From contig NZ_CP034539.1 in the NCBI RefSeq assembly GCF_003963535.1, forward strand, positions 4,774,001 through 4,838,000: a stretch of 64,000 nucleotides of DNA, written 5' to 3'. The translations under genes and the position numbers were made by a program. Shown one piece after another: positions 26,491-43,364 of this stretch. Below the pieces are notes generated by a model. The model saw only the letters and a program-made list of their open reading frames with translations. It had not been told where the DNA came from and searched no databases. The stretch is from Streptomyces cyaneochromogenes (GTDB taxonomy: Bacteria; Actinomycetota; Actinomycetes; Streptomycetales; Streptomycetaceae). Positions within the stretch are counted from its first letter, which is position 1. The number at the start of each line of letters is the position of its first letter.

Positions 26491-26501
26491 ACACTGGCAG
26501 C

Positions 26502-27177: not shown

Positions 27178-27208
27178 ACAGCCCATGTACGGAACCCGGA
27201 GAACCCGC

Positions 27209-27853
27209 ATGCCCGACTTCACCGCCGCCGCCACCCAGCGCGCCCGTGTCCGGGTCCCGCTGCGCTTCCAGGACGGCTACCGCGCCGACGCCGAACTGGT
27301 CACCTTCCACGGCCTCGCCGACGGTCAGGAACACGTCGCCGTCGTCCTCGGCGACCCGGCCCCCGGCACCACCCCGCTGGTCCGCCTCCACTCCGAGTGC
27401 CTGACCGGCGACGTCTTCGGCTCGGCCCGCTGCGACTGCGGCCCCCAGCTGCGCGAGGCCGTCGAGCGCATCGCCGAGCGCGGTGGCGTGCTGCTGTACC
27501 TGCGCCAGGAGGGCCGCGGCATCGGGCTCTACAACAAGCTCGACGCGTACGCCCTCCAGGACCAGGGCCTCGACACCTACGCCGCGAACGCCGCGCTGGG
27601 CCTGCCCGAGGACGACCGCGACTACACGGCGGCCGCCCAGATGCTCACCGCCCTCGGCATCGGCGCACTGGACCTGCTCTCCAACAACCCCGACAAGGCC
27701 GACCAGTTGCGCGACCTCGGCATCGAGGTCCGCGACCGCGTCCCCACCGGTGTCTTCGCCACCCCGGACAACGTCCGCTACCTGCGCGCGAAGGTCCTGC
27801 AGACCCAGCACACGCTGCCGCTGGGCGACCTCGCGGGGCTCAACGTGGGCTGA
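27209..27853 (+). CDS. ribA: GTP cyclohydrolase II
   Basis: About 214 residues, a stand-alone RibA without the RibB half. The zinc-binding cysteines are in 'SECLTGDVFGSARCDCGPQL', the catalytic region in 'LYLRQEGRGIGLYNKLDAYA', and 'TNNP-like' 'LSNNPDKADQLRDLGI' follows. The Tyr in 'DAYALQDQG' that separates true cyclohydrolase II from the formamidopyrimidine-releasing variants is kept, so the normal product of riboflavin step one is expected. The ATG at 27209 is preferred because GGAG lies 7 bases upstream; an ATG at 27185 has none. Confidence 0.93.
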   Translation: MPDFTAAATQRARVRVPLRFQDGYRADAELVTFHGLADGQEHVAVVLGDPAPGTTPLVRLHSECLTGDVFGSARCDCGPQLREAVERIAERGGVLLYLRQEGRGIGLYNKLDAYALQDQGLDTYAANAALGLPEDDRDYTAAAQMLTALGIGALDLLSNNPDKADQLRDLGIEVRDRVPTGVFATPDNVRYLRAKVLQTQHTLPLGDLAGLNVG

Positions 27854-27867
27854 GCGCACGCAACAAG

Positions 27868-27904
27868 AAGGGGCGGGCGTCCGAACTCCGGACGCCCGCC
27901 CCTT
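27868..27904. terminator. Bidirectional terminator between ribA and the subtilase gene
   Basis: AAGGGGCGGGCGTCCG (27868-27883) pairs perfectly with its complement at 27889-27904 around a 5-base loop, followed on the plus strand by a short T tract. It serves convergent genes. Confidence 0.92.
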
Positions 27905-27921
27905 TGTCGTGTGTACGACGG

Positions 27922-30900
27922 TTACGGCGTGACCTTCTCGATCGTCACCCCGCCGACGCCCGCGGTCGTCCCGCGCGCGTTCAGCAGCCGTACCTCACCG
28001 AAGAGCTGCCGGCCCTCGGGCACGGCCCGCGCGACGGTGATGTTCGCCGACGCCTTCGCCGAGTCGCCCGTGCCGAGCTTCACCGGCGTCGACTCGTCGA
28101 CGGTGACCGAGCCGAGCGCGGAGGAGAAGAACGCGTCCCGGTAGTCGAACGCGGTCGAGCCGGACGGCACCTCGAAGCCGATGACCTCGACGGTGTAGGT
28201 CCCGGCGGCCGGGTTCGCGATGGAGACGGCCTCCTCGGAGTCACCGTCCGCGGACTGGCCGACGAGCTTGCCCTCGGCGTCGTACACGTTCAGGTCGAGG
28301 TCGGAGCTCAGGTCGGAGACCTTGCCGATGGCGACGTCCAGGGACGTGGTGCCCTCGGGCACCTCGACGGTGCTGGTCTGCGTCGCGCCGTCGGCGATCG
28401 TCGGCCGCGCGGTCTTCGAGGAGCCGAGCGCGCCGCCCTTCAGCTTGCCGTCGACGGCCTGCAGCTTGTTGGTCACCGTCCAGTTGGCGGCGACCGGGGT
28501 GCCGACCTTGGCCTCCGGCACGGTCACGGCGGCCGGGTCGAAGGACGCGGCGTAGACCGTGGCGTTCAGCTTGTACGGGTTGTCCAGCAGGGCAGACGTA
28601 CGGCGCACGTCGACCTCGATCTCCCAGACGCCGGGCAGCGGGTCCTCGTAGGAGGCGATGTCCGTCGTGTCGGGGTCGTTGTCGGGGGCCGTGACGCCGT
28701 ACGGGCTGATGGCGCTGAACTTCGCCAGGCTGCCCTCCTTCAGTCCGTCCAGCGTGACCTGGAGCGACTTCGCGCCCTCGGGAACGGTGACGAAGTAGGA
28801 CTTGAAGTTGTTGCGCTGCACCGAGCCGGAGGCGGTGAAGGTGTGCTGGACCGGCGTGGAGACCACGACGGTGTTCAGGATCTGCTTGTCGACGCCCGCG
28901 GTCCTCGGGTCGTCGGCCTCCAGGATCACGCTCTTGATGCCGGCGTGCTTGGGCGCGGCCTGCAGCTTGACCGTCACCGCCTTGTTCAGCGGCAGGTTGA
29001 CGACCTTCGGGCCGGCGATCGAGAAGGTGCGGGCCTTGTTGTTCGCCAGGCGCAGGGTGTGCGGGAGCGAGCCGGCGGGGCCGGACGTACGGGTGATGGT
29101 GACGTCGTACGTCTTCTTCTGGCCCGCCTTGAGGCCGCCCTCGCGGTCGTAGACGCCCGTGCCGAAGCCCGGCGTCTTCAGGGCCTGGTCGAGCGCGGTG
29201 TCGACCGGGGCCTTCACGGCGTAGTCGTGCGCGGTGGCGCCCGCCTTGATGGCCTTCCAGGCGCCGGCGACGTCCATGAGGCCGGCACCCTCCTCGTAGG
29301 CCTGAAGTCCCTCGATGTGCTTGGCCGTTGAGGTGAGAGCCGTGCGCAGCTTCTCGGGCGTCAGCTTGATGCCCCGCTGCTCGGCGGCGGACAGGAGCAG
29401 CGCGGACGAGCCCGCGGCCTGCGGGGACGCCATCGAGGTGCCGTTGTACATCGCGTAGCCGGCCGGCAGCTTCCAGCCCGCCTCGGCGATCGGGGCGCCG
29501 GGCATCCAGGCCGGGATGGTGCTGACCGCGGAGCCGGGGGCGACGATCGTCGGCGTGAAGCCGCCGTCCTCACGCGGGCCGCGCGAGGAGAAGTTGAACA
29601 GCTGGTACTCGTTCTCGACGCCGGTGCCGTAGTTGGCGGCGAAGGTCTCCTTGGAGACGCCGGCGCCGACGGAGATCACCTTGTCGGCGAGGCCGGGGTC
29701 GCCGATGGTGTTGGCGCCCGGGCCGGAGTTGCCGGCGGAGATGACGAGCTGGACGCCGTAGGTGTCGATGAGCCGCGTGTACATCTCGGCGCGGGCGTTG
29801 TTGCCGTCGTTCAGCGGGGGCAGGCCGCCGATGGACATGTTGACGACGTCGACGCCGCGGTTGGCGACGAGGTCGATCATGCCCTCGGTGAGCGCGACGT
29901 TGGAGCAGCCGGGGCCGAAGACGCAGGCCCGGGACGACACGATCTTCGCGCCGGGGGCGGCGCCGTTCATGTTCTTGCTGCCGAGCAGGCCGTTGGCGGC
30001 GGTGATGCCGGCCACGTGGCTGCCGTGCGAGCCGGCGGTGAGGCCGATGTTGACGAAGTCGGCCTTCTTGCCGACCCAGTCGCCGCCCAGCGGGTCCATC
30101 GGGACGTCCTTGCGGACCTCCACGACGAAGTCCTGGGTCTCGGGGATGTCCGTGGCGGGGTTGTCGGTGCCGAAGTGGCCGACCTGGTGGCCGTCCTTGT
30201 ACGGCTTCATCGGGGTGTCGTCGGTGAAGTCGCCGTTGTCGTTGACGTCGACGGTGACCGTGCCGGCGGTGGGGTTGTACAGGACGCCCCAGTCGTCGGT
30301 CTTGTCGCCGTCGCGGTTGACGTCGCCGTCGGCGTCGCCGTCCTTGGCCTCGCCCTGGTTGGTGACGGCCTCACGGAAGGTGCTGATCTGGTACGAGCCC
30401 TCGGGCGCCGTCCAGCTCTTGCCCCCGAAGGTGAAGGACGGGCCGGAGACGGAGGTGGTCATCGCCCGCCAGGTGCCGTCGCCGTCGACGATCGGGTCGG
30501 TGGCGGTCACCCAGTCGACGATCTTGCGCTCGCCGGTCGTCGTCTTCTGCAGCGCCGGGCTGGCGAGGTCGACACCGGTGTCGAGGACACCGATGGTGAC
30601 GCCGCGCCCGTCGGCCTTCGGGTTCTTCTTCACGAAGTCCACGGCGCCCGTCTCGAAGGACGGGTTGTACGGGTTCTTCGCGGGGGTGTTCTCGTCCGGG
30701 CCCGGGTAAGTGGCCGCGGTCGCGCTCGACTTGGTGCCGCTGTCGAGGCTCGGCTCTTCGAGGGGTATCTCGTCCCGCAGGTCGATGGCCTGCACGGAGG
30801 AGAGCTTCGCGGCGGCCGCGATGGCCGAGTCCGCCTTGCCGGTCGGCACGGTGGCGCGTACGTAGCCGAGCTTGTCGTACGTACGGCCCACGGAGCCGCC

Positions 30901-31203
30901 CTTGATCGCGTCCAGCTCCGCGGCGACCTTCTCGGTCTGGCCGGGCGCGGTGGCGATCATCATCGTGACGGTCTTGTCGCGCTGTGCCTTGGCCTCCGCG
31001 AGGAGGTCGGCGTCGTCCGAACCGAGCTTGTCGTGGGCGGACTTGACGCCGGGGTCGGCCGCGGTGGCGGTGGTGCCGTCCGCGGCGAGGGCGAGGGGTA
31101 TGGGCCCGGCCGCGGAGAGCGCGGCGACGAGGCCTGCGGCCACGGCGATACGGGCAGCGCGTTTCGCGCCCGATATCGGGGCCGAGTGGGGGGTGGTGGG
31201 CAT
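27922..31203 (-). CDS. Secreted S8 subtilisin-like serine peptidase
   Basis: About 1093 residues. A signal peptide ('IAVAAGLVAALSAAGPIPLA') is followed by an I9-type propeptide. The S8 catalytic triad is Asp in 'IGVLDTGVDLAS' (about 208), His in 'GSHGSHVAGITAANG' (about 393) and Ser in 'YNGTSMASPQAAG' (about 586). A large insertion with Asp/Gly-rich, perhaps calcium-binding, stretches separates Asp and His. The C-terminal ~450 residues are beta-rich, resembling PPC and Fn3-like domains. It should be an extracellular nutritional or developmental protease. The ATG at 31203 has AGGGA upstream. Confidence 0.95.
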   Translation of the reverse strand: MPTTPHSAPISGAKRAARIAVAAGLVAALSAAGPIPLALAADGTTATAADPGVKSAHDKLGSDDADLLAEAKAQRDKTVTMMIATAPGQTEKVAAELDAIKGGSVGRTYDKLGYVRATVPTGKADSAIAAAAKLSSVQAIDLRDEIPLEEPSLDSGTKSSATAATYPGPDENTPAKNPYNPSFETGAVDFVKKNPKADGRGVTIGVLDTGVDLASPALQKTTTGERKIVDWVTATDPIVDGDGTWRAMTTSVSGPSFTFGGKSWTAPEGSYQISTFREAVTNQGEAKDGDADGDVNRDGDKTDDWGVLYNPTAGTVTVDVNDNGDFTDDTPMKPYKDGHQVGHFGTDNPATDIPETQDFVVEVRKDVPMDPLGGDWVGKKADFVNIGLTAGSHGSHVAGITAANGLLGSKNMNGAAPGAKIVSSRACVFGPGCSNVALTEGMIDLVANRGVDVVNMSIGGLPPLNDGNNARAEMYTRLIDTYGVQLVISAGNSGPGANTIGDPGLADKVISVGAGVSKETFAANYGTGVENEYQLFNFSSRGPREDGGFTPTIVAPGSAVSTIPAWMPGAPIAEAGWKLPAGYAMYNGTSMASPQAAGSSALLLSAAEQRGIKLTPEKLRTALTSTAKHIEGLQAYEEGAGLMDVAGAWKAIKAGATAHDYAVKAPVDTALDQALKTPGFGTGVYDREGGLKAGQKKTYDVTITRTSGPAGSLPHTLRLANNKARTFSIAGPKVVNLPLNKAVTVKLQAAPKHAGIKSVILEADDPRTAGVDKQILNTVVVSTPVQHTFTASGSVQRNNFKSYFVTVPEGAKSLQVTLDGLKEGSLAKFSAISPYGVTAPDNDPDTTDIASYEDPLPGVWEIEVDVRRTSALLDNPYKLNATVYAASFDPAAVTVPEAKVGTPVAANWTVTNKLQAVDGKLKGGALGSSKTARPTIADGATQTSTVEVPEGTTSLDVAIGKVSDLSSDLDLNVYDAEGKLVGQSADGDSEEAVSIANPAAGTYTVEVIGFEVPSGSTAFDYRDAFFSSALGSVTVDESTPVKLGTGDSAKASANITVARAVPEGRQLFGEVRLLNARGTTAGVGGVTIEKVTP

Positions 31204-31455
31204 GGTGATCCCTGGTGCTGAAGGAACGTAGGCGTCGGCGGCCGGAACGAGCACCTTCGACCGCCGCGGTCCGGATAGTGATCCCGGATGATCGCCTAGC
31301 TTTCCTCAAGGGACCGATTTCTGTTGATAGTTCACGGAGGAGAGATCGTGGACTGGCACATACTCGCCATACGCCACGAGGGACTTAACGGACCATGCTG
31401 TGACATTCCTGTGAGTCGGCAGGGGTTGCTGGGGTTTCTGGTGAGCCAGGGGCCT

Positions 31456-31530
31456 GATGAGTCGTGGCCTGTTGGGTCACGGCCCGGCGAGTCACGGCCT
31501 GGTGGATCACGGCCTGGTGGATCACGGCCT
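31456..31530. repeat. 15-bp tandem repeat, five copies
   Basis: Units of the form GGTGGATCACGGCCT occur at 31456, 31471, 31486, 31501 and 31516; the last two are identical. They lie just past the stop of the minus-strand arsM gene. A 70-codon plus-strand frame across them is low-complexity and not credible. Confidence 0.85.
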
Positions 31531-31537
31531 TGCTGAG

Positions 31538-32308
31538 TCAGACCGTCGGCTTCACGGCCCGGACGATGGCGGAGTGCATGCCGTCGGCGACGGCGTGCGT
31601 GGCCGTGATCTCGACATCCGTGAAGCCGGCCGCCTCCAGCCCCTCCCGGTACTCCGCGAAGGACAGCGCGCCGGCGATGCAGCCGACGTGGTCGCCGCGC
31701 TCGCCGCGCTGGGCGGGGGTGAGGGTGTCCTCGGCGACGACATCGGTGACGCCGATCCGGCCACCCGGCCTGAGCACGCGGAAGGCCTCGGCGAAGACGG
31801 CCGGCTTGTCGACGGACAGGTTGATGACGCAGTTGGAGATCACGACGTCGATCGTGGCGGCGGGCAGCGGGACGGCCTCGATGGTGCCCTTGAGGAACTC
31901 GACGTTGGCGGCTCCCGCCTTCCTCGCGTTGGCGAGGGCCAGGGCGAGCATCTCCTCGGTCATGTCCAGCCCGTACGCCTTGCCGGTCGGGCCGACCCGG
32001 CGGGCGGAGAGCAGGACGTCGATGCCGCCGCCGGAGCCCATGTCGAGGACACGCTCACCCAGGCGGAGTTCGGCCACGGCTGTGGGGTTGCCGCAGCCGA
32101 GGGAGGCGGCGAGGGCCTCGGCGGGGAGGGTGTCGCGGTCGGCGGCGGCGTAGAGGGTGGAACCGAAGTTGTCGTCTACCTCTACGGGCTCGGGTCCGCA
32201 GCAGGTGGAGTCACAGCAGGCGGCGGAGCCGCCCTCGGTGACCTTCAGGGCTGCGGTGGCATACCGCTGACGGACGGTTTCGCGCAGGTCGGTGGGCTGG
32301 TCGCTCAT
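31538..32308 (-). CDS. arsM: Arsenite S-adenosylmethionine methyltransferase
   Basis: 256 residues. The methyltransferase motif I is 'ERVLDMGSGGGIDVLLSA'. The ArsM signature 'ASLGCGNPTAVAEL' is present, as are the conserved arsenic-binding cysteines in 'VISNCVINLSVDK' and 'HVGCIAGALSFAEY', plus an extra N-terminal cysteine cluster ('ACCDSTCCGPEP'). It methylates As(III), using SAM and thiols, to methylated or volatile arsenicals. The ATG has AGGAG about 6 bases upstream. It is divergent from arsR, so both units probably share control by ArsR. Confidence 0.95.
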   Translation of the reverse strand: MSDQPTDLRETVRQRYATAALKVTEGGSAACCDSTCCGPEPVEVDDNFGSTLYAAADRDTLPAEALAASLGCGNPTAVAELRLGERVLDMGSGGGIDVLLSARRVGPTGKAYGLDMTEEMLALALANARKAGAANVEFLKGTIEAVPLPAATIDVVISNCVINLSVDKPAVFAEAFRVLRPGGRIGVTDVVAEDTLTPAQRGERGDHVGCIAGALSFAEYREGLEAAGFTDVEITATHAVADGMHSAIVRAVKPTV

Positions 32309-32354
32309 GACTCACTCCTGGGTTGCCGCGAACGGGTGGATGGCCGCTACCGGG

Positions 32355-32378
32355 CTGCATTGAAGTTCTTCGATGCAG
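32355..32378. promoter_or_regulatory. ArsR operator palindrome
   Basis: CTGCATTGAAG-TT-CTTCGATGCAG, 11-bp arms with one mismatch, in the 117-bp divergent arsM/arsR intergenic region. A weaker related sequence (TTGAATCGAAGGATGTCAA) follows at about 32398-32416. Both resemble the imperfect dyads bound by ArsR/SmtB repressors. Confidence 0.78.
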
Positions 32379-32425
32379 CTGACTCCAACGTTGCGCCTTG
32401 AATCGAAGGATGTCAACATAGAAGT

Positions 32426-32803
32426 GTGTCGAAACAAGAGCTGGAAGTGCTCGGCCAGGACGCGGCCGACGCCTGCTGCGCGGGCCTGGCCTCCGCACCC
32501 CTGGCCGAGGACCGGGCCGCCGAGCTGGCGAAGCTGTTCAAGGCCCTGGGCGATCCCGTGCGGCTGCGGCTGCTGTCGATGATCGCCTCACGGGACGGCG
32601 GCGAGGTCTGCGTGTGCGAACTGACCCCGGCCTTCGAGCTGTCCCAGCCGACGATCTCCCACCACCTCAAGCTCCTCCGCCAGGCCGGCCTCATCGACTG
32701 CGAGCGGCGGGGCACGTGGGTCTACTACTGGGTGCTGCCCGACACCCTCGACCTGCTCGCCCAGTTCCTGAGGACACCGCAGGCCGCCGGAGCGCCCGCG
32801 TGA
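32426..32803 (+). CDS. arsR: ArsR-family arsenic-responsive repressor
   Basis: 125 residues with a winged helix: 'LFKALGDPVRLRLLSMI', recognition helix 'LSQPTISHHLKLLRQAGLI' and wing 'CERRGTWVYYWVL'. The As(III)-sensing Cys-x-Cys is in 'EVCVCELTPAF', and two further cysteines lie near the N-terminus ('DACCAGL'). The GTG start at 32426 follows the operator region. Its stop overlaps the next gene by GTGA, so the two are translationally coupled. It should release arsM and its own operon when As(III) binds. Confidence 0.95.
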   Translation: MSKQELEVLGQDAADACCAGLASAPLAEDRAAELAKLFKALGDPVRLRLLSMIASRDGGEVCVCELTPAFELSQPTISHHLKLLRQAGLIDCERRGTWVYYWVLPDTLDLLAQFLRTPQAAGAPA

Positions 32804-33546
32804 GCGCGCCACTGGCCCGGCGGGCGGCGGCCGAGGCCGTCGGTTCGGCAGCCCTGGTCGCGGTGGTGGTCGGCTCCGGCATCCAGGCGACCGAGCTCTC
32901 CCGTGACGTCGGAGTGCAGCTGCTCGCCAACTCGCTGGCCACCGTATTCGGCCTGGGCGTGCTCATCGCGCTGCTCGGCCCGGTCTCCGGCGCCCACTTC
33001 AATCCGGTCGTCACGCTCGCCGCCTGGTTCACCGGCCGACGGGGCGGGGACGGTCCGACCGGGCGGGACGTGGCCGCGTACGTCCCCGCACAGATCGCGG
33101 GAGCGATCGGGGGCGCGGTGCTGGCCGACGCCATGTTCGCGCGACCGCTGGTCCAGTGGTCCACGCACGACCGCTCGGCCGGTCACCTGTGGCTCGGCGA
33201 GCTCGTCGCCACCGCCGGGCTCGTCCTCCTCGTCCTCGGCCTGACCCGCGTCGGCCGCGACCGGCTCGCCCCCGTGGCGGTGGCCTCGTACATCGGCGCC
33301 GCCTACTGGTTCACGTCGTCCACGTCCTTCGCCAACCCGGCGGTGACGGTCGGCCGGGCGTTCACCGACACCTTCGCGGGGATCGCGCCCGCCTCGGTCG
33401 GCGGGTTCGTGGCGGCGCAGCTGGTGGGGGGCGCGCTCGGACTGGCGCTGGTGGCGGTGGTCTTCGGGCGGCGGGGGACGGCCGTACGGGTGGAGACCGC
33501 CGCACCCCGGGAGGCGCCGGGCGTCACCGCGCCCACGCTTCCCTGA
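32800..33546 (+). CDS. Aquaporin/MIP-family channel in the arsenic operon
   Basis: 248 residues with six transmembrane segments and two pore half-helices. The duplicated NPA signatures appear as 'SGAHFNPVVTLAAW' and 'SFANPAVTVGRAF'; the first is the NPV variant. Translation is coupled to arsR by a GTGA overlap. No ArsB or Acr3 pump gene is present in the locus, so this channel may release arsenite down its gradient, as AqpS does in Sinorhizobium. It could alternatively pass glycerol or methylated arsenicals. The C-terminus is a short Pro/Ala-rich tail. Confidence 0.9.
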   Translation: MSAPLARRAAAEAVGSAALVAVVVGSGIQATELSRDVGVQLLANSLATVFGLGVLIALLGPVSGAHFNPVVTLAAWFTGRRGGDGPTGRDVAAYVPAQIAGAIGGAVLADAMFARPLVQWSTHDRSAGHLWLGELVATAGLVLLVLGLTRVGRDRLAPVAVASYIGAAYWFTSSTSFANPAVTVGRAFTDTFAGIAPASVGGFVAAQLVGGALGLALVAVVFGRRGTAVRVETAAPREAPGVTAPTLP

Positions 33547-33664
33547 CCTCCCTCGGACAACCGCGACCGTGACCCGGACAACCACCACCGCTGCTCGGAG
33601 ACACACGGACCCGCCACCCCGAAACGCACGGACCGTCACCCGGAAACACACAGAAGGCCACGTC

Positions 33665-34099
33665 ATGAGCCCCAGCTCCCCCGCCGAGCGCCCCTCCGTC
33701 CTCTTCGTCTGCGTCCACAACGCCGGCCGCTCCCAGATGGCCGCGGCCTTCCTCACCCATCTTGCGGGAGACGCGGTCGAGGTCCGCTCGGCCGGCTCGG
33801 CGCCCGCCGACACGGTGAACCCCGCGGTCGTGGCGGCGATGCGGGAAGCCGGTATCGACATCTCCGCGCAGACCCCGAAGATCCTGACCACCGAGGCCGT
33901 CCAGGCGTCCGACGTCGTGATCACCATGGGCTGCGGCGACACCTGCCCCGTCTTCCCCGGCAAGACCTACCTGGACTGGACGCTGGACGACCCCGCCGGC
34001 CAGGGCGTGGACGCCGTACGGCCCATCCGTGAGGAGATCGAGCGACGCGTCCGCGCGCTGCTGACCGACCTCGGCGTGACGACCTCTACGGCCCCCTGA
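33665..34099 (+). CDS. arsC: Arsenate reductase of the low-molecular-weight phosphatase fold
   Basis: 144 residues. The P-loop nucleophile is in 'VLFVCVHNAGRSQMAAAF' (C-x5-R-S), and the resolving cysteines lie in 'MGCGDTCPVFPGK', followed by 'LDWTLDDPAGQ' with the general acid Asp. This is the actinobacterial ArsC type that works with thioredoxin or mycothiol and reduces As(V) to As(III). The ATG at 33665 is 118 bp after the channel gene. The spacer has loose repeats (GACCCGGACAACCACC-like) and no terminator, so one operon is likely. Confidence 0.94.
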   Translation: MSPSSPAERPSVLFVCVHNAGRSQMAAAFLTHLAGDAVEVRSAGSAPADTVNPAVVAAMREAGIDISAQTPKILTTEAVQASDVVITMGCGDTCPVFPGKTYLDWTLDDPAGQGVDAVRPIREEIERRVRALLTDLGVTTSTAP

Positions 34100-34106
34100 G
34101 CGCCGC

Positions 34107-34898
34107 TCAGCCCAGCTGAAGCCGGTCGATCAGCCCGGCCGCGGTGAATTCGTCCACCAGCTCGGCGCGGCCCTCGGTGAAGTGGGCCCAGCTGTCGAAG
34201 TGGACGGGAACGATCCACCGCGCCCCGAGTATCCGCGCGGCCTCCGCGGCCCGGGCGCTGTCGAGGGTGAGCAACTGGCGGTCGAGGATGTCGCCGCGAG
34301 CCGCGCCGGCGAAGAGCACGGCGGTGTCCACCGGCCCGAACCGCTCGGCGATCTCCTTGACCGGCCCGAGCTGGGCGTTGTCACCGCTGACGTACACGGT
34401 GGGCAGACCGTCCCCGGCCAGCACGAACCCGACGACCTGCCCGATGACCGGTTCGAGTTCCTCCCGCTCGCCCGGGCCGTGCAGCGCGGGCACCCCGGTC
34501 ACGGTGATCGCGCCCCCGCCGGGCCGCCCCACCTCCACGGACTCCCAGTCCTTCAGCCCCCGAGCGGTACCGCCCAGCCGTCCCGCCCCACTCGGCGTGG
34601 TCAGAGTGAGCGGCACATCGGCGAGCAGGGCACGGCCGGAGACGTCGAGGTTGTCGGGGTGCTCGTCGTGCGAGAGCAGCACCACGTCGATACGGCCGAG
34701 TTCGGCGGGCGAGGCGGAGGCGGCGGCGGTCTTGGTCAGCGCGCGACCGCCACCCAGGGGGTAGTCGCCGGGGGCGTCGAAGGTGGGGTCGGTGAGGAGG
34801 CGCAGGCCGCCGTACTCGATGAGGGCGGTGGGGCCGCCGAAGACGCGGACGGAGACGGGGGCGGGGACCTGCTCGGTGGTGGTGCGGGTGTCGACCAT
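34107..34898 (-). CDS. MBL-fold metal-dependent hydrolase (UPF0173-like)
   Basis: 263 residues with the beta-lactamase-like fold. 'ALIEYGGLRLLTDPTFD' opens the fold. The metal motif is 'LLSHDEHPDNLD' rather than the full HxHxDH, followed by 'VTGVPALHGPG', 'YVSGDNAQLGPV' and the terminal 'WIVPVHFDSWAHF'. It resembles L-ascorbate-6-phosphate-lactonase-like proteins of unknown substrate. It ends 7 bp from arsC but on the opposite strand. The nested inverted repeat at 34907-34981 overlaps its ribosome-site region and probably regulates it. Confidence 0.85.
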   Translation of the reverse strand: MVDTRTTTEQVPAPVSVRVFGGPTALIEYGGLRLLTDPTFDAPGDYPLGGGRALTKTAAASASPAELGRIDVVLLSHDEHPDNLDVSGRALLADVPLTLTTPSGAGRLGGTARGLKDWESVEVGRPGGGAITVTGVPALHGPGEREELEPVIGQVVGFVLAGDGLPTVYVSGDNAQLGPVKEIAERFGPVDTAVLFAGAARGDILDRQLLTLDSARAAEAARILGARWIVPVHFDSWAHFTEGRAELVDEFTAAGLIDRLQLG

Positions 34899-34906
34899 CG
34901 CCAGAC

Positions 34907-34981
34907 CTCACGTTTGATAGGGATCGCATCCGTGAGACACAGCTAACCGCGCCTCACGGATGGATGCAACCCAAACGTGAG
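34907..34981. promoter_or_regulatory. Nested inverted-repeat operator upstream of the MBL gene
   Basis: Outer arms CTCACGTTTG (34907-34916) and CAAACGTGAG (34972-34981) enclose inner arms ATCCGTGAG (34928-34936) and CTCACGGAT (34953-34961). Equivalently, a 30-bp element bounded by CTCACG and CGTGAG is followed by an inverted diverged copy. Four CTCACG half-sites suggest binding of two dimers. The sites lie between the MBL start and the divergent accessory operon. Confidence 0.75.
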
Positions 34982-35195
34982 AAGCCACGTGTCGCGTGCC
35001 CGGGAACTCGTCGATGCGAACCGGGCCGCCGAAGGTGACCGACGGGACGGCGGCGAGGGCGATGGGCGGGACGGCGCGGGTGTTCTCGCCGGTGGCTGGA
35101 CTTCGCCGAACTCTGACATGCGCACGCGCATCCGGAGCGACAATGGCCGCTCGGGCCCCAGGGTGATCCAACGACGCGCAGGGACGGAGTTCCGT

Positions 35196-35591
35196 ATGAC
35201 GAGCCGGGGGGAGTCGGACGGGCTGAGGATCGCCGAGGCGCTGTCGTACGTGTGCCGGCGCCGGGACCGACTGGCCGCGCTGCTCCACGAGGACGGCACC
35301 GCCTTGCGCGCCCTCGAAGCCGCGGTCGCCGGCCCCGTCGCGGACGACGCCTCGCTCTCCCCCCTCCTGGACACCCTGCACAGAGCGGTCCGCCGTGCGG
35401 GCGACCCGTTCGGGGTGTACGGCGGAACGGGCCGCAGCGTGACACCGGCGGGTGTCGGTGATCTGGACGTCGTGTACCGGTGCCCCTTGCAGTTGTGCAC
35501 CGGCCGCTCCGGCCACGAAGTCGACGGCGATCCGCCGAACTGCCGGTTCGCCCCGCAGGGGACGGCACTTGTCCGGGAGAGGCTCCCGTAG
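35196..35591 (+). CDS. Uncharacterised 131-residue Cys-containing protein heading the accessory operon
   Basis: The ATG at 35196 has GGAG 6 bases upstream, which fixes the start despite an open frame further up. The N-terminal half is helical ('LRIAEALSYVCRRRDRLAAL'). The C-terminal half contains 'YRCPLQLCTG' and 'PPNCRFAPQG', a C-x4-C ... C pattern that looks like an incomplete zinc-ribbon or knuckle. I do not recognise the family. The stop TAG shares its G with the GTG of the next gene (TAGTG), so it is translationally coupled to the membrane protein. It may be an adaptor within the unit that faces the CHAT gene. Confidence 0.7.
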   Translation: MTSRGESDGLRIAEALSYVCRRRDRLAALLHEDGTALRALEAAVAGPVADDASLSPLLDTLHRAVRRAGDPFGVYGGTGRSVTPAGVGDLDVVYRCPLQLCTGRSGHEVDGDPPNCRFAPQGTALVRERLP

Positions 35592-36526
35592 TGGGAGGGC
35601 TCCTGGGCGAACTCGGCAAGAAGCTGGCGGAGCAGTGGCTGACCCTCCTCGTCCTGCCGGGCGCGCTGTATCTGGCGGTCGTCGCGGCCGGACACACCCT
35701 CGGGCACGGTGCGGCGCTGGACGTCGGGCGGCTCACCCAGGCCGTCTCGGCTGCCGCGCGGGATCCCCAGGTGACCACCGTGGGCGGACAGGTCGTGCTG
35801 CTGACCGCCGTCCTGGCCGGTGCGGCCGCCGCCGGCCTGGCCGCCCAGGCCCTCGGATCCGCCGTCGAGCGTGCCGCCCTGGCCGCCGGCTGGGCCGCAT
35901 GGCCGTGGCCGTTCGGGGAGTTGGCCGAGCGCCGCACGGCACACAGGCGACGCCGATGGGACGCGCTGCGGGCGGCGTACGAGGTTCTACTCACCCAGGA
36001 ACGCGCTCCGCGTCCGGCCGACCGGCCCAGTCCCCTGGAGCGTCACCGTGCGGCCCGCAGGTGCGAACGCGTCTCCGTGGAGCGGCCCGAGCGGCCGACC
36101 TGGAGCGGTGACCGCATCCATGCCGCCGCGGTCCGGCTGGACCGGGACACACACATCAGCCTGCTCGTCGTCTGGCCGCACCTCTGGCTCGTGCTGCCGG
36201 AGGAGACACGGCTCGAGATCGGCAGGGCCCGCGCCGCGCTGACCCGGGCCGCCGTGCTCGGCGGATGGGCACTGCTCTACCTGCCCCTGACCTGGTGGTG
36301 GTGGCCCGCGGCGCCACTCGCCGCCACGCTCGTGACCATTTCGGCACGACGCCTGCGTACCGCCTCGGACACCTACGCCACCCTGCTGGAGGCATCCGCG
36401 CGCCTTCACCTGACGGACCTGGCCGTCAAGCTGAACATCGGGGAACTGCCGGTGGGCCCACGGCTCGGTGCGGCGCTCATGCGACAGCTGAGCAGCCCGG
36501 TTCCCCGGCCGGATCCGGCCCCGTAG
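35591..36526 (+). CDS. Uncharacterised membrane protein of the accessory operon
   Basis: 311 residues. Two N-terminal transmembrane segments (about 14-36, 'WLTLLVLPGALYLAVVAAG', and about 65-85) are followed by a basic soluble region of ~110 residues. A C-terminal hydrophobic pair (about 215-255) contains a striking Trp cluster ('LTWWWWPAAPL'). The GTG start overlaps the preceding stop by one base. No enzyme motif is visible. It may anchor the complex formed by its neighbours; function unknown. Confidence 0.72.
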   Translation: MGGLLGELGKKLAEQWLTLLVLPGALYLAVVAAGHTLGHGAALDVGRLTQAVSAAARDPQVTTVGGQVVLLTAVLAGAAAAGLAAQALGSAVERAALAAGWAAWPWPFGELAERRTAHRRRRWDALRAAYEVLLTQERAPRPADRPSPLERHRAARRCERVSVERPERPTWSGDRIHAAAVRLDRDTHISLLVVWPHLWLVLPEETRLEIGRARAALTRAAVLGGWALLYLPLTWWWWPAAPLAATLVTISARRLRTASDTYATLLEASARLHLTDLAVKLNIGELPVGPRLGAALMRQLSSPVPRPDPAP

Positions 36527-36577
36527 AACTGGTCGGAACCGACGCTGCAGAGGGGTCGGACACGACCCCGTAGAGCC

Positions 36578-37360
36578 GTGTTCGCCACCGCCCCGACGGC
36601 ATTGTGCTCCCGTCAACTGTGGGACAGACTACGGCGCATGGCACAGGCGGGGCACTTAGGAACAGCGGACGACTCCTCAGGTGAGGATCGTCGCGTCTTC
36701 CTCCTGGGGTTCGATGCCGACGGACGTGTCGTCATCGCGCGGAACAACCCGGATCACGCGCGCTACGTCGTCATCCTCATCCCCGGTGTCGGCGCGTGGC
36801 CGTCCGGCCTGGACCCGCTCCTGCTCCGCGCCGAGGTCCTCTGCCGCGAGCTGTCCTCGACACCGGACGACGACGCCGTCTCGGTCATCACCTGGGTCGA
36901 CTACAAGGCACCCGCGTCGCCCTCGGACGCCCGCGATCCGGCGTTCGCCGCGCAGGGGGCGACCCGGCTGGCCCACTTCATCGTCGACCGCCGGGTGACG
37001 GCGGAGGCCTGGGGCCGCGGGCCCGGCCCTCAGCGGATCACGGTCATCGGGCACGGCTACGGCGGACTCGTGGCCGGCTTCGCGGCACGGGACCACGGCA
37101 TGGACATCGATGCGCTGGTCCTCCTCGGCTCCGCGTCCGCGGGGACCGAGACCGCGAGCGGGCTGCGCGTCACGGGACCGGTGTACGCGACGTCCCCCGA
37201 GGTCAACGGCGACGGCACGCCCCACGGCGTCCACGGTCCCCGGCCGGACTCCCCCGGGTTCGGCGCCATCGTGCTGCACCCCGGACCGCTGTCGTACGGA
37301 GGCGATCCGACGGTCCGGTATCTGTCGTCGCTGAAGAAGATCATCCTCGGGACTCGCTGA
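36578..37360 (+). CDS. Alpha/beta-hydrolase-like protein with missing nucleophile Ser
   Basis: 260 residues. The strands and loops 'YVVILIPGVGAWPSG', 'DDAVSVITWVDYKAP' and 'ITVIGHGYGGLVAGFAARD' fit the DUF1023-type alpha/beta hydrolase fold. The expected G-x-S-x-G elbow reads Gly-His-Gly-Tyr-Gly, so the catalytic Ser is a Gly, one base change from Ser. The later 'ALVLLGSASAG' and 'GAIVLHPGPLSYG' also fit the family. It may be a non-catalytic binding protein or use another residue. The start is a GTG at 36578 (an ATG at 36638 is possible). It converges on the CHAT gene with a 30-bp gap. Confidence 0.72.
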   Translation: MFATAPTALCSRQLWDRLRRMAQAGHLGTADDSSGEDRRVFLLGFDADGRVVIARNNPDHARYVVILIPGVGAWPSGLDPLLLRAEVLCRELSSTPDDDAVSVITWVDYKAPASPSDARDPAFAAQGATRLAHFIVDRRVTAEAWGRGPGPQRITVIGHGYGGLVAGFAARDHGMDIDALVLLGSASAGTETASGLRVTGPVYATSPEVNGDGTPHGVHGPRPDSPGFGAIVLHPGPLSYGGDPTVRYLSSLKKIILGTR

Positions 37361-37400
37361 CCTCCCTCAGGCCCCGTGCGCTGACCTCCCTCAGGCCCCC
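37355..37400. repeat. 24-bp tandem duplication spanning both convergent stop codons
   Basis: CGCTGACCTCCCTCAGGCCC is followed by CCGTG and then repeats from 37379. Copy 1 holds the TGA of the hydrolase gene and copy 2 the TCA (minus-strand TGA) of the CHAT gene. The 24-bp period keeps both frames, so each gene has a second in-frame stop nearby. This looks like a recent slippage duplication at the junction. Confidence 0.85.
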
Positions 37401-40400
37401 GTATACAGGTGCGCGGCCCACAGCGACGGCGTACGGGGGTACAGGTCCCGCTGCCTGCGGGCGGCGCGGTGCAGCGCGTGCGCGGCCCGTCCGAGGTCGA
37501 GCGTGCCGTCCCGGGGGTCGCGCAGCGCGGAGTAGAAGTCCTCGGCGATGTCGACGGCGACCTCGTCGTCCACCATCCACAGGGAGCCGACCACTCCGGG
37601 GAAGCCGGCGAGCTGGAAGGCACCGGCCAGGTGCAGTGACTCGTCGAGGAGACGACCGGCGGCGTTCAGAGCGGTGTGGCACGCCGAGAGATAGGTGAGC
37701 TGGGCGTCTTCGAGGTCGATGCCGGCGAGGCTGCCGACGGTCAGCGGACTGTGTTCGTGGTCGTGCAGGAGGAGCCTGCTCGCCGACGGGTCCCGGTGGT
37801 CGTAGTCGCCGTGGCAGGCGAAGTGCACCACGCCGCGCCCGGGAAGCTCCGCCAGCACGAGGTCCCGGGTGGGAAGCGGCCTGCCGTCGTCGGCACCGGA
37901 CGCCGCGTCCGGGTCCGGGTCCGGTTCGATCAGCACCAGGGGATCGGGGAGCAGCCGGGCGAGCGCCTCCGTCTCGGCCTCGACGTACCGGAGCGGCCCG
38001 CCCTGCGGCAGCCCGGGGGTGGTGGGCATCGCGACGACGAGCGAACGGTCCGCCGCCCCGGCGGCGGACCGGCGTCGACGCGCGTGCCGCAGGGCCCTGA
38101 TGGTGGGGGTGTACGAGGACACCACCCGGTCCATGACCGTACGGCGGGCCGGCGAGACCGGGTCGTCGTGGTGACCGGCCGCATGCAGGGGCAGCATGCC
38201 CAGGCGACCGCTGGGCGCCCACCACAGACGTGGCAACGTGATTCCCTCGGCCGGAGTGGTGTCGTGGCCGAGGGCTTCGAGAACCGGCCCGGCGGCGCTG
38301 TCCCAGAGCCACTTCAGTATGTCGCCGAGGGCGGCCTGGGCGGCGACGCGGTCCGCGTCCGGATCGGTGGCCTCGCGCAGCGCCACATGGAACGCGTTGA
38401 CATTGTCGATCACCGCTCGCGGTGTCAGCGCGGGCAGGGACAGCGCGGTGACGCCGTCCGCCGTGAGCAGCAGGGCATGGCTGTGCCAGTCGTGGAGGAC
38501 GAAGGTGACGACCGGTCCCGGCCCGGCGTCGGACCGCAGTTCGTCGGCGGTGGGCGGCAGGGCGAAGCCGGCGAAGCCGTCCAGGGCACGGATCCGGCCG
38601 AGCAGCGCCGTCATCTGTGCGGCGGCGTCGACGCGGTCGTCGGGCCGGCGCGGGCCGGCGTTCCCGGCGTGAAGAGGCTCGATGTCACGGTCGAGGCTCT
38701 CCCTCAGCCCGGCGAAACGTGCCGCGAGTTCAGGGTGGACGCGGCGCAGCTCGGCCAGGTCGCTGCGGGCGTCGAGGGTCTGGCCCAGCAGGACCGCGCG
38801 TCCCGCCTCCAGCAGGGAGAGCGCGCGCTGCGCACGCTCCGGGAGCGGCCGGGTCGTATCGGCCAGCACGGCGCCGGCGGCACTGTCCGCGAACTCGGCG
38901 ACGGATGCGATGGCGTACTCCTGATCAGCGCGCCCCATGCGGTGCGAGGCGAGTTCGGGCAGCAGCAGGACCCCGGTCTCCAGCAGTTCGGCCTCCAGAG
39001 CGGGATCCGTGTTGTCGATCAGGAGCGCGCCGAATCGGGCACCTTGGATGCGCACCGTCGGGGGCGCCGTCTCGCACCGGACCAACTCGGTGAAGAGACG
39101 CAGCGCTTCTTCCTTGTCCGCGGGAGCCTTGCCACGGATGAACCGGGACCGTAAGGCCGCCGCCGTCACCAGCAGGGTCGCGGGGCGGTAGCCGTGGTCG
39201 GCGGAGGCCGCGTCGAGGGCTTGGCGTCCCGTGTCCACCGCTTCGTCGAGATCCCTCCTGTCCCCGACGAAGTCGAAGCGGGCCTCGAGGAGATGGCACA
39301 GGTTGGAGAGGGCCTGGACCCGGTCCTCTCCGTCCCCGGTCGCGCGTTCGAGGGCACGGCGGCCGAACTCCAGTGCTTCGTCGAGATCGGCCGCCTCCCT
39401 GTTGCGCTGGAACCGGAAGTGCAGGGCATTGCTCAACGACGCGAGGTACAGGGCGCGCTGGGATCCCTCGGCGAGGGAGGCGTCGACGGCCCCACGCCCG
39501 GCTTCCACCGACGCGTCGAGATCCGCCCGCCGGCCGGCGCGCTCGTAGCGGAGCCGGTACGCGAAGCTGAGGGCTGCCAGACGCCCTGCCCGTCCGGCGG
39601 CGTCCGGGGCCGTGGCCTCGACGGTCCGACGTCGTGCCTCGACCAGTTCATCCGCGTCGGCCAGCGAGCGCGTCCGCTGGAAGCGATCCCCGAGGCAGTC
39701 GGCGAGCTGATCCAAACAGTCCGCGTGCTCGGGACGGCCGCCGACGGCGATTCTGACGGACTGTCCCTCACCTGCGGCCCTGACGGCCCGTCCCCCGGCA
39801 GCGGCCCCACCACCGGCCTCCTCCGGACTCCCGCTGGGAATCCCGCCCGGACGCCCGCCCGGAATCCCGTTCGGACTCCCGTCCGGATTCCTCAGCGCGG
39901 CCGTGTCGGCGGCACGGCGGGCGAAGCCGACCGCCTCGTCGAGGTCGGGCAGCGATCTTGTCAGCCGTGAGCGGCGGAGCAGCACCTGCGACAGATTCCG
40001 CAGGGCGGTTCCGAGCGCGTCGTCGGACGGATCGTCCGACGCCGCTACGGCCACCCGGCCGAAGGCGACCGCCTCGTCCAGATCCTCCCGGTCTCCCAGG
40101 CGGTCGAAGCGGATGAACAGCGAGCTGCAGAGGTTGGCCGCACACGCCGTGCGCCCGGAACCGTCCTGCGCGGCTTCGAGCCCCTCGCGCTCGGCGGCTA
40201 TCGCCCGGTGCAGATCGTCGAGCGCCTCCTCGCGTTCGTAACGCCGGATCAGCGCGGTGGACAGGGCGCGCAGCCGTGCGCACCGTTCGGCATGGCCGGC
40301 GGCGGTCACCTCGACGATCAGCTGCCGAGCGGTGACGGCCGCGTCAAGATCCTCGGGCGTTGCGAGCAGTTCGAAGCGCTTCCACAACGCGGTGGCGAGG

Positions 40401-41971
40401 GCGATCAGAGACAGCTCACGATGAAGGTCGTCGTCCGCCGCGTCCGTGACGGCTCGACGGCACGAGTCGATGGCCTCGTCCAGGTCTGCCGCCCCGTTCG
40501 TCTTCTCGTGGCGCGACAGCAGCACGGTGCCGAGGTTCGTGAGCATCAGCGCCCGCGCGGAACGGTCGGCGTCATCGACGGACTCGACGGCTTGCCGGGC
40601 CGCGTCGACCGCTTCGTCGCCCTCGGCGGCCGCGCCGGTCGCCCTGAAGCTCTCGTTCAGCGTCCTGCTGAGCTCCAGGAGGAGAGGTGTGGGCCGGCGG
40701 ACGTGTGGCGGTGTGGCGGTGGCCGCCCGGCGCAGTACGTCCATCGCCTGTCGCAGATCCGCCCGGGCGCCGGTCAGGTCGTACCGGGAGCGCAGGGCGC
40801 TGCCGAGCTCCGCGAGGCGCGAGGCCCACTGCTCCTGCCCCGCCGGGGTCGCCTCGACGGCCCGCCGCAGCGCATCCACGGCCTCGTCCAGATCCGCCGC
40901 CGACCGGGTCTGCCGGAACCGGCTGTGGCAGGCCTCGCCCAGGGTGGTCAGATACCTGGCCCGGTCCGGATGCGCCGCCCCGGCTTCCACGCACGCACGG
41001 CCGACCCGCACCGCCTCGTCCAGGTCCGCCGTCCGCCGCCGATGCGCGAACGCGCTCCGCAGAGCGGTGCTGAGGTTGTTGAGCATCGCCGCGCGGTCGG
41101 GGTTGTCCGCGCTGGTGGCGGCAAGCGCGCGTCGGGCCACGGTCGTCGCCTCGGCGAGATCCTCCCAGTCGCCCTTGAGACCGAAGCGGGCCTGCAGCAC
41201 CGCGCCGAGATTCGCCAGCATCGGGCCCTGCCCCGGAAAGCCCTCGGCGGCCTCGACGGCCCGTCGCGCGACCGTCACCGCCTCGTGCAGATCGGGCTCG
41301 GCTCGGGTGCGGTCGTAGCGTCCCTTGAGCGCGGCGCCGAGATTCGACAGGGCCATCACCAGGTGACGGCGTTCCGAGGCGATCTCCACGGCCCGCCGCC
41401 CGGTGGCCAGCGCGCCGTCCAGATCCCGTGGGTCCCCGGTCCGCGAGAACCTCATCCAGAACGCGCCGCAGACGATCGCCAGACGGTGAGGCCGTTCCGG
41501 ATGGCCTTCCGGCGTGGCGTTCACCAGATGGACCCAATGGTCGACGACATAGGAGAGCAGGGTCGTGTCGGAGCCGGCCGAGGCGTACTCGAGCAGATCG
41601 AGCAGGCGCGGTGCGGCCCTGTCCGCCAGCGCGGACAGCAGCGGTTCGGGCAGTTCCCACAGCCCCATGGTGATCGCGGCCGGGGTGAGCTGCTCCAGAG
41701 CCTCTTCGAGCACCGCCTGCTTCCGAAGCCCCTGAGGCAGCGCCTGGAACTGATACCACTTCAGCCAGCCCAGCGCGTGCCTGGCCTCTGTGTCCGTGAT
41801 CCCTGACTCGCCCGTGCCCGTGCCCGTGGTCCCGGATTCGTCGAGATCGCGCTTGATCTCGGCGGCCATGGCGTCGAGGCCCGGCGTCAACGCCAGTGAC
41901 GGATCACCCGAGTTCCCGATCCATCGCAGGGCCTCCGCCAACCGGCCCACCAACTCGTCCCGACGCCGCAT
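37391..41971 (-). CDS. TPR-CHAT protein, caspase-like peptidase with long repeat region
   Basis: 1526 residues. Residues ~60-1150 consist of many TPR-like repeats of 45-50 residues with the recurring pattern 'DLDEAVxxGRRAVEA', broken near 690-730 by a Pro/Gly linker ('PNGIPGGRPGGIPSG'). The C-terminal ~300 residues are a CHAT (clan CD) protease domain with the catalytic pair His in 'VVHFACHGDYDH' (about 1387) and Cys in 'LTYLSACHTAL' (about 1431). The end 'SLWMVDDEVAVDIAEDFY' is also typical. TPR-CHAT proteases act in bacterial immunity (Craspase, gasdermin activation). ATG at 41971 with AGGGGG upstream. Substrate unknown; the facing operon is the obvious partner. Confidence 0.92.
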   Translation of the reverse strand: MRRRDELVGRLAEALRWIGNSGDPSLALTPGLDAMAAEIKRDLDESGTTGTGTGESGITDTEARHALGWLKWYQFQALPQGLRKQAVLEEALEQLTPAAITMGLWELPEPLLSALADRAAPRLLDLLEYASAGSDTTLLSYVVDHWVHLVNATPEGHPERPHRLAIVCGAFWMRFSRTGDPRDLDGALATGRRAVEIASERRHLVMALSNLGAALKGRYDRTRAEPDLHEAVTVARRAVEAAEGFPGQGPMLANLGAVLQARFGLKGDWEDLAEATTVARRALAATSADNPDRAAMLNNLSTALRSAFAHRRRTADLDEAVRVGRACVEAGAAHPDRARYLTTLGEACHSRFRQTRSAADLDEAVDALRRAVEATPAGQEQWASRLAELGSALRSRYDLTGARADLRQAMDVLRRAATATPPHVRRPTPLLLELSRTLNESFRATGAAAEGDEAVDAARQAVESVDDADRSARALMLTNLGTVLLSRHEKTNGAADLDEAIDSCRRAVTDAADDDLHRELSLIALATALWKRFELLATPEDLDAAVTARQLIVEVTAAGHAERCARLRALSTALIRRYEREEALDDLHRAIAAEREGLEAAQDGSGRTACAANLCSSLFIRFDRLGDREDLDEAVAFGRVAVAASDDPSDDALGTALRNLSQVLLRRSRLTRSLPDLDEAVGFARRAADTAALRNPDGSPNGIPGGRPGGIPSGSPEEAGGGAAAGGRAVRAAGEGQSVRIAVGGRPEHADCLDQLADCLGDRFQRTRSLADADELVEARRRTVEATAPDAAGRAGRLAALSFAYRLRYERAGRRADLDASVEAGRGAVDASLAEGSQRALYLASLSNALHFRFQRNREAADLDEALEFGRRALERATGDGEDRVQALSNLCHLLEARFDFVGDRRDLDEAVDTGRQALDAASADHGYRPATLLVTAAALRSRFIRGKAPADKEEALRLFTELVRCETAPPTVRIQGARFGALLIDNTDPALEAELLETGVLLLPELASHRMGRADQEYAIASVAEFADSAAGAVLADTTRPLPERAQRALSLLEAGRAVLLGQTLDARSDLAELRRVHPELAARFAGLRESLDRDIEPLHAGNAGPRRPDDRVDAAAQMTALLGRIRALDGFAGFALPPTADELRSDAGPGPVVTFVLHDWHSHALLLTADGVTALSLPALTPRAVIDNVNAFHVALREATDPDADRVAAQAALGDILKWLWDSAAGPVLEALGHDTTPAEGITLPRLWWAPSGRLGMLPLHAAGHHDDPVSPARRTVMDRVVSSYTPTIRALRHARRRRSAAGAADRSLVVAMPTTPGLPQGGPLRYVEAETEALARLLPDPLVLIEPDPDPDAASGADDGRPLPTRDLVLAELPGRGVVHFACHGDYDHRDPSASRLLLHDHEHSPLTVGSLAGIDLEDAQLTYLSACHTALNAAGRLLDESLHLAGAFQLAGFPGVVGSLWMVDDEVAVDIAEDFYSALRDPRDGTLDLGRAAHALHRAARRQRDLYPRTPSLWAAHLYTGA

Positions 41972-42207
41972 CGGACCCCCTAGTCGCAGCGGCCTCCGAT
42001 CGTATGACGCCGGCCCTCTACACGGATATGGGAAGGCAACCGTCCGTGATGGCCTCTACCGCATCATGGCGCTCACACATCGCTCACGCAGGACCTCCCG
42101 CTGATCAGCAGCAGCTCTCGTGTCAGCGGTGTTCGACATGGCGAAGGTCCGCGCGAACCCTTCCGGGACCACGCGGACCTCCTGTCGTCTGCCCGTCGGC
42201 ACCAGGC

Positions 42208-43163: not shown

Positions 43164-43243
43164 GCAAGCCGAAGGCTCTCCAGGCGGAGCGTCCCCCGGC
43201 GCATCCGCTCACGCATCGCCCACGCACAGCCCCGAAAACGAAA

Positions 43244-43279
43244 CAGCGCCCGACCCGACCGAAGCCGACTCAGGCGCTG
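43244..43279 (-). terminator. Duplicate of the tRNA-Lys downstream hairpin
   Basis: CAGCGCC and GGCGCTG pair around a G/C-rich, partly G-U-paired interior. The same hairpin stands at 52705-52740 after the intact tRNA-Lys gene. Confidence 0.7.
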
Positions 43280-43316
43280 CACAGCAGGTCAGAGGGGGGT
43301 ACCCCCGTCACCCGCG

Positions 43317-43364
43317 CGGTAGGCCCTGTGGGACTCGAACCCACAACCAATGGATTAAAAGTCC
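43317..43364. repeat. att-like copy of the tRNA-Lys 3' end
   Basis: 48 bp identical to 52777-52824, covering the 3' 45 bases of tRNA-Lys(TTT) up to the anticodon loop (on the minus strand). Sequence diverges immediately past GTCC. Similarity continues less perfectly on the tRNA-distal side to about 43230. This is the expected scar of an element integrated into the tRNA gene. Confidence 0.88.

Follow-up and report, generated by a model that had tools for sequence, protein, structure and literature searches.

Within a 64,000-nucleotide stretch of Streptomyces cyaneochromogenes (bases 4774001-4838000 of a genome assembled as a single contig of 10.68 Mb; hereafter the window) we analysed four adjacent genes encoding a small Cys-containing protein (P1), a membrane protein (P2), a hydrolase homologue predicted to be catalytically dead (P3) and a large TPR-CHAT protein. 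The locus consists of two modules: a P1-P2-CHAT core that recurs in other actinobacterial genomes, and P3, which is tied to one lineage of the CHAT protein. A preliminary description of the sequence had presented the four genes as a single unit; the core of that proposal stood, and P3 as a general member did not. Since P3 is present in only 7 of 112 loci, one four-gene system is ruled out.

Conservation of the P1-P2-CHAT core

To define the neighbourhood, we performed a search led by P2. Within the genus, 52 of 199 genomes, counting that of the window, carried a relative; for the phylum as a whole the figure was 4 of 296, with one weak match among the four (E 3.4e-4). The locus set was composed of 40 regions from the genus search (of 68 rows outside the window), 80 regions chosen as the best among 247 relatives in named genomes, and the window; removal of nine duplicates left 112 non-redundant loci, all selected by similarity to P2. 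Relatives from named genomes were mostly from Streptomyces, the other genera being Amycolatopsis, Glycomyces, Nocardiopsis, Streptomonospora, Nonomuraea, Microbispora, Streptosporangium, Acrocarpospora, Lentzea, Actinophytocola, Kineosporia and Catenulispora. None of the P2 relatives was found in phage records and four plasmid records contained one.

P1 lies immediately 5' of P2 in 111 of the 112 loci (a count that includes the out-of-frame P1 of locus L041) and a CHAT domain is encoded nearby in 99. The co-occurrence of families raised in the preliminary description is thus borne out for P1 and CHAT among loci chosen by P2, and because the adjacency is conserved in other genomes the arrangement is not peculiar to the window. 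At least one locus with CHAT near P2 was found in 12 of the 13 genera, the exception being Streptomonospora. P1 and P2 are separated by no more than 10 nt in 108 of the 111 loci, and the two genes overlap in 41. An apparent P1-P2 fusion in L041, suggested by matches in the same open reading frame (ORF), was rejected, as translation revealed a P1 with the Cys motif out of frame. In the window genome the P1 profile matched two places, each accompanied by P2.

Chance proximity was assessed in 19 near-complete genomes, a hand-picked subset of the 52 that carry P2 within the genus. They contain 26 P2 places, 22 of which were within 7 kb of a CHAT hit, against a chance expectation of about 0.6% per P2 place (73 CHAT hits, each with 14 kb, over 177 Mb). 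Furthermore, the proteins co-diverged across 98 loci, with Mantel correlations of 0.85 for P2 and CHAT, 0.86 for P1 and P2 and 0.80 for P1 and CHAT; for each of the three pairs, none of 2000 permutations was as high. The locus of S. viridochromogenes NRRL 3413 (L115) aligned with the window by blastn at 85-86% identity over 35091-39766 and 39878-42006.

The TPR-CHAT protease and the P1-P2 pair

The large protein matched the CHAT family PF12770 (E 4.8e-43) and TPR_10 (PF13374) in Pfam. The CHAT match reached 148.1 bits against a curated cut-off of 24 and covered positions 3-288 of the 289-position profile. The catalytic pair is positioned in the motifs HFACHG (H1387) and LSAC (C1431), and His and Cys are retained in all 98 CHAT rows that cover both, the 99th (L109) being cut. 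The intact pair noted previously was confirmed here and in the relatives, and the window protein is a predicted protease. Its only match among sequences of the Protein Data Bank (PDB) was the TPR-CHAT protein 7zoq_A (E 3.7e-4). Between the window and L115, the TPR half evolved faster than the CHAT half (nonsynonymous divergence, dN, 0.113 versus 0.065). A different TPR-CHAT setting was observed at another place in the window genome (L188, 7637-12452), with a small protein of hydrophobic start encoded 5' of CHAT and, on the 3' side, a 226-aa gene followed by a gene read from the sequence as a RES-like toxin. The fragmented genome of Lentzea indica (L169) contained fourteen CHAT hits.

P1 has a helical N-terminal half, a C-terminal Cys knuckle (CPx3C...C), a further Cys near the N-terminus and no predicted transmembrane helix. 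All 111 rows have C96 and C101, 110 have C116 and 106 have C20. The AlphaFold model of P1 is of low confidence (predicted local distance difference test, pLDDT, 66), and as the model is weak we regard metal binding as a guess; the knuckle may perhaps bind zinc. Neither P1 nor P2 of the window had a Pfam match at E≤1 or a match in NCBIfam. Among 75 P1 members, the sole Pfam match was to Crust_neuro_H in two members (best E 0.0042), and 33 of 33 P2 members were without a match.

The P2 model is all helical and has a pLDDT of 94. At the chosen hydropathy cut-off two segments were detected in the window's P2 and two to five in full-length relatives; taking the long helices of the model together with charge and hydropathy, P2 probably has about four transmembrane helices, with both termini and a conserved middle of about 100 residues (RPTWxGDR...WPxLWLxLP) probably in the cytosol. 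In the 33-row alignment the invariant residues are W16, six residues of the middle region (R119, P166, P169, R175, W195 and W199) and, within long hydrophobic helices three and four, W226, W238 and P239. Residues from about 135 to 160, between conserved helices, are variable in length and poorly conserved. A Foldseek search with the P2 model yielded nothing at E≤0.001 in the PDB or BFVD, and the P2 profile found no clear relative among PDB sequences (best E 0.032). The best VIA-align hit, a helical part of a pore toxin (6h2f_D; Z 8.0, 87 residues, root mean square deviation 4.8), was discounted as evidence of a known fold because the notes of VIA-align describe this level as common for helical bundles.

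P3 and the exchange of the protease

P3 matched Abhydrolase_8 (PF06259, E 5e-18) over its core and is in this respect like the DUF1023 hydrolases of actinobacteria. These homologues keep the nucleophile Ser (26 of 26 that cover the motif) and mostly the HSxY motif, whereas P3 has lost the Ser and apparently the His of that motif; moreover, their open frames are mostly 500-700 aa long, whereas P3 is short and stands alone. The nucleophile motif reads GHGYGG in P3 and GHSYGS/T in the homologues, with Gly at the nucleophile position in seven of seven orthologues. The two nearest non-orthologues also keep Ser. In the seven orthologues the HSxY region is altered and the His apparently lost, so that the earlier remark on a hydrolase without a nucleophile applies to the whole group and, it seems, to a second catalytic residue. 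Judged by these residues, P3 is catalytically dead.

Matches to P3 at E<1e-70 were found in 2 of 392 genomes of the genus (next match 2.4e-22), and among 394 genomes sampled across the class the window genome alone reached that level (next 1.3e-32); five further named genomes have one P3 each, at the locus. In all seven loci P3 is convergent with CHAT and located 0-44 nt from the CHAT stop. Comparison of the window with L115 gave the lowest ratio of nonsynonymous to synonymous divergence (dN/dS) for P3 (0.19), followed by P2 (0.37), CHAT (0.38) and P1 (0.52). P3 is under purifying selection, and because a dead enzyme has been kept under such constraint it probably acts by binding.

The CHAT proteins of the P3 loci form one clade (support 98/84 in the careful tree; one change, with none of 500 shuffles as low), which spans Streptomycetaceae, Pseudonocardiaceae and Glycomycetaceae and includes the CHATs of the window and L115. 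The P2 proteins of these two loci belong elsewhere, to the clade of locus L038 (support 100, quick tree), and those of the other five P3 loci form a clade of their own (99). Correspondingly, identity between the window and the L038 group is 78-82% for P2 and 53-54% for CHAT. The window CHAT shares 61-66% identity with the other P3 loci and 89% with L115, and for P2 the values are 48-50% and 83%. A P2 identity above 75% combined with a CHAT identity below 60% was observed in 13 of 4753 pairs; twelve involve the window or L115 and the thirteenth is from Nocardiopsis. By these identities and trees the window locus is chimeric, with P1-P2 from a clade that has a different CHAT, and CHAT and P3 from a clade that has another P1-P2. 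Since both the window and L115 are chimeric, it was CHAT, not P1-P2, that P3 accompanied; on the simplest account, P1-P2 kept its place while its original CHAT was exchanged for a CHAT-P3 cassette. A second possible protease exchange was noted in the Nocardiopsis loci L139 and L140, where P2 is 84% and CHAT 52% identical.

A second gene family was found 3' of CHAT in ten loci, in nine of them in the same direction and in one at a distance of 418 nt. The proteins scanned in three of the ten loci are TPR proteins, and eight of the ten associated CHATs form one clade (100/100). In two or more lineages, then, the slot 3' of CHAT is occupied by a partner specific to that lineage. Such a partner is not general: 63 of 96 genes called 3' of CHAT match none of the others. 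In addition, L043 (4562-5206) and L121 (about 3143-3781) have related genes behind CHAT, encoding 214 and 213 aa in the same direction at a distance of 35 nt; the L043 gene has no Pfam match, and the two together may represent a third lineage-specific partner.

Comparison with known systems

Among the nearest described systems is Craspase, which combines the type III-E effector gRAMP (Cas7-11), the TPR-CHAT protein Csx29 and the substrate Csx30. It shares with the window locus the TPR-CHAT architecture and the His/Cys dyad of the protease, and its substrate gene is close to that of the protease. The genes for CHAT substrates are commonly neighbours of the protease gene, and cleavage of Csx30 by a TPR-CHAT protein, which stays inactive as long as its partner has not bound non-self RNA, has been demonstrated (PMC9729208). 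The constant partner in our loci, by contrast, is a membrane pair. The Csx29 model NF041237 gave 34.7 bits on the window CHAT against a cut-off of 300 and aligned with residues 1384-1482 only. No gRAMP/Cas7-11 gene or CRISPR array was noticed among the window ORFs read, a reading that included no dedicated cas or array search. Protease-gasdermin pairs likewise place a protease gene beside a gene for a membrane-acting product; the pairs include bacterial gasdermins (bGSDM) and fungal HET-Q1 with HET-Q2-like proteases, of which about 17% have a CHAT domain (PMC10989679). P2 differs from these in being a predicted helical membrane protein and in being part of a constant two-gene pair. The Pfam scan of P1, P2 and P3 yielded no gasdermin, and the P2 model is all helix.

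A study of prokaryotic conflict systems from 2020 is reported to have found inactive modules taken from cellular subsystems. Conflict systems are placed preponderantly in multicellular prokaryotes (eLife 2020, PMC7159879), and caspase-like peptidases are assigned the role of activators (eLife 2021, PMC8195603). By contrast, Pfam found no NTPase, vWA, MoxR, EAD or STAND part in our four proteins. The word CHAT is absent from the main text of PMC7159879; PMC8195603 has three word-start occurrences, two of which are author names. None of the four locus proteins matched an anti-phage model of PADLOC at E≤1. No description of the P1-P2 pair or of the gene set, and no described system for Streptomyces TPR-CHAT proteases, was noticed in the literature searched, which did not extend to bioRxiv preprints or to the majority of subscription papers. 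The type of protease is already known, as is the concept of a substrate encoded next to it; two of the four proteins have no match among curated families.

Possible functions of the locus

What is directly established is which genes make up the set and that they are conserved, that the protease retains its catalytic pair, that the hydrolase is dead and that P3 is inherited together with CHAT. The reading we favour, tentatively and at somewhat below even probability, is that P1-P2 serves as a membrane control platform and P3 as a lineage-specific substrate or decoy of CHAT; it is favoured because of the analogy with the TPR-CHAT protease and neighbouring substrate of Craspase (PMC9729208). P1 and P2 would be translationally coupled and form a membrane complex, in which P2, with its approximately four transmembrane helices, would expose a conserved cytosolic face and P1 would contribute the Cys knuckle. 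This complex would hold the TPR-CHAT protein, sense on its behalf or position it, and damage, an intruder or a non-self contact through the TPR region may serve as trigger, upon which CHAT would be released or activated and would cleave its target. P3 would then be the dedicated CHAT partner of this lineage, most probably its substrate or a decoy resembling a larger active hydrolase, with the TPR protein in its place in the other CHAT lineage. Dormancy or death would follow, an outcome that we infer, as we do the membrane complex, the triggering and the cleavage of P3.

TPR-CHAT-type proteases are common in the genus, as the 73 CHAT hits in 19 P2-bearing genomes indicate, and the near-constant membrane pair together with a lineage-specific dead hydrolase provides a handle on the control of CHAT and on its possible targets. 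P1-P2-CHAT with P3 is possibly a switch for bacterial self-destruction or immunity that has so far escaped recognition. It is a distinctly doubtful proposition that P1-P2-TPR-CHAT is an undescribed, widespread execution system of actinobacteria of the caspase-like kind, in which a two-protein membrane sensor licenses the protease, interchangeable neighbours are its targets, P3 is a domesticated hydrolase acting as decoy, and protease and decoy are exchanged as a cassette. With as little confidence, the decoy reading might be taken to describe a bacterial counterpart of guard-and-decoy immunity. Should P3 indeed be a decoy or substrate, protease-executed immunity and guard logic would extend to mycelial bacteria.

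Several observations weigh against the control-platform reading. Of the 73 CHAT hits in the 19 genomes, 49 have no P2 within 7 kb, and CHAT therefore has other contexts; because the search was led by P2, all our counts are conditional on P2. No CHAT was found in the stretch examined in 13 of the 112 loci. Five of these are explained, three by a nearby contig end (L042, L044 and L169, the first two with TPR segments at the contig edge), one by a partial P2 (L064) and one as a broken copy (L054). Eight remain (L041, L065, L138, L142, L143, L151, L157 and L160), with only 4.2 kb examined on one side of L151. In three of them (L138, L142 and L143, from Streptomonospora and Nocardiopsis), apparently intact P1-P2 genes at 7600-9000 share a neighbourhood (rpe to rsmB, judging by the sequence) in which no CHAT lies within 8 kb; the same genomes have one or two CHAT hits elsewhere. 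As these pairs look intact without CHAT, a linked protease is not required for P1-P2 to be passed on, and no other observation speaks more strongly against a strict three-gene unit. Moreover, the Pfam families of the flanks are mostly metabolic or associated with transport (among 25 listed of 115).

The alternatives differ in the role they assign to P2, to the system as a whole and to P3. P2 itself may be the executioner, with CHAT cutting its variable cytosolic linker to set free a membrane-damaging helical fragment, P1 acting as a safety catch and P3 as an accessory regulator. P2 is the membrane protein of the set and is constant with P1, the stretch at residues 135-160 would suit such a cut, and protease-gasdermin pairs offer a precedent (PMC10989679). 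However, the strongest conservation of P2 is largely in its middle (RPTWxGDR...WPxLW), which looks like a binding surface and not like a pore, and the apparently intact P1-P2 pairs without a linked CHAT persist in Nocardiopsidaceae; we consider this alternative unlikely. No more probable, in our estimate, is that the system has no part in immunity but controls growth, development or the state of the envelope of mycelial bacteria by proteolysis, through a separase-like cut of a regulator. The metabolic and transport flanks speak for this, as do the concentration of P2 in the genus compared with the phylum and its absence from phage records, with four plasmid records. The patchy presence, the cassette exchange and the decayed copies look more like a conflict system, and the faster evolution of the TPR half also argues against a regulator of this kind. 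The PADLOC comparison at E≤1e-10 may point the same way: 120 of 252 flank proteins (33 loci) gave 52 families, many of them redundant, a tally of families and not of matching proteins, versus 6 families with one to four members for 120 of 152 proteins from 12 hand-picked control loci that were not position-matched. Each of the 25 flank families listed has one member; 15 are PD-T4-6 kinase models, and the other listed matches include homing endonuclease, reverse transcriptase, Cas1, mad3, mad6 and GajA.

For P3, the alternative to a substrate or decoy is an inhibitor or chaperone of CHAT, comparable to a securin-like brake, which we regard as rather unlikely. It is consistent with the co-inheritance of P3 and CHAT and with the slow evolution of P3, as expected of a stable binding partner; P3, being convergent to CHAT, would be expressed from a separate transcript. 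Other CHAT lineages nevertheless manage without P3, and in no respect do the present data separate an inhibitor from a substrate. Finally, unrelated neighbours brought together by chance or by annotation artefacts would be conceivable in high-GC DNA, which yields many spurious ORFs, but the adjacency in 111 and 99 of 112 loci, the 22 of 26 P2 places in near-complete genomes, the syntenic block in L115 and dN/dS values of 0.19-0.52 make this explanation extremely improbable.

Gene layout, further copies and flanks

All four ORFs of the preliminary description are present as listed below.

Coordinates of the four genes and of the block shared with L115 (positions in the window)
Feature	Position	Strand	Description
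P1	35196-35591	+	131 aa; ORF
P2	35591-36526	+	311 aa; membrane protein ORF
P3	36638-37360	+	240 aa from ATG; alternative GTG 36578 gives 260 aa
TPR-CHAT	37391-41971	-	1526 aa; H1387/C1431 intact
Conserved block	35091-42006	no strand	blastn match to L115 (S. viridochromogenes NRRL 3413), same chromosomal setting

P1 and P2 overlap by 1 nt in the junction TAGTG, as had been proposed. The 51-bp gap given for P2 and P3 was not upheld: it corresponds to a start at GTG 36578, and P3 probably begins at ATG 36638, 111 nt from P2, because its closest orthologue, in L115, begins MGQAGHLGTA. The tail-to-tail arrangement of P3 with the 1526-residue protein was verified, with 30 nt between the two stops.

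Two Streptomyces copies without CHAT look decayed, L041 through its out-of-frame P1 and L054 through a stop in P2. L054 is a second P1-P2 copy of the window genome (10219767-10220672), with an in-frame TGA in P2, no CHAT in 20 kb and transposase-like ORFs alongside. A fragment of the P2 N-terminus, divergent from another CHAT of the same genome (L190, about 6156-6332, minus strand; genome 350155-350331), looks like a decayed third copy. A search for remnants of further P1, P2 or CHAT beside the window unit yielded no credible match, with a best E of 0.004 over 27 residues.

To the left of P1, a stretch at 31414-35090 holds arsenic-resistance-like genes (ArsR, a channel, an arsenate reductase and a methyltransferase, named from the sequence) between an S8-protease-like gene and P1. 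It is absent at the corresponding place in L115, where the left flank (25098-31413, 90% identity) directly adjoins the conserved block. To the right, a direct repeat at 43217-43364 and 52678-52824 (150-column alignment, 88% identity) includes the 3' part of a tRNA-Lys(TTT), the full gene of which is at 52778-52852 on the minus strand. The repeat looks like an attachment-site duplication around a 9.4-kb element; a mobile element enclosing the unit was rejected, as the repeat bounds 43.3-52.8 kb, to the right of the unit. In some relatives two or more matching copies of the tRNA repeat were found a few kb apart.

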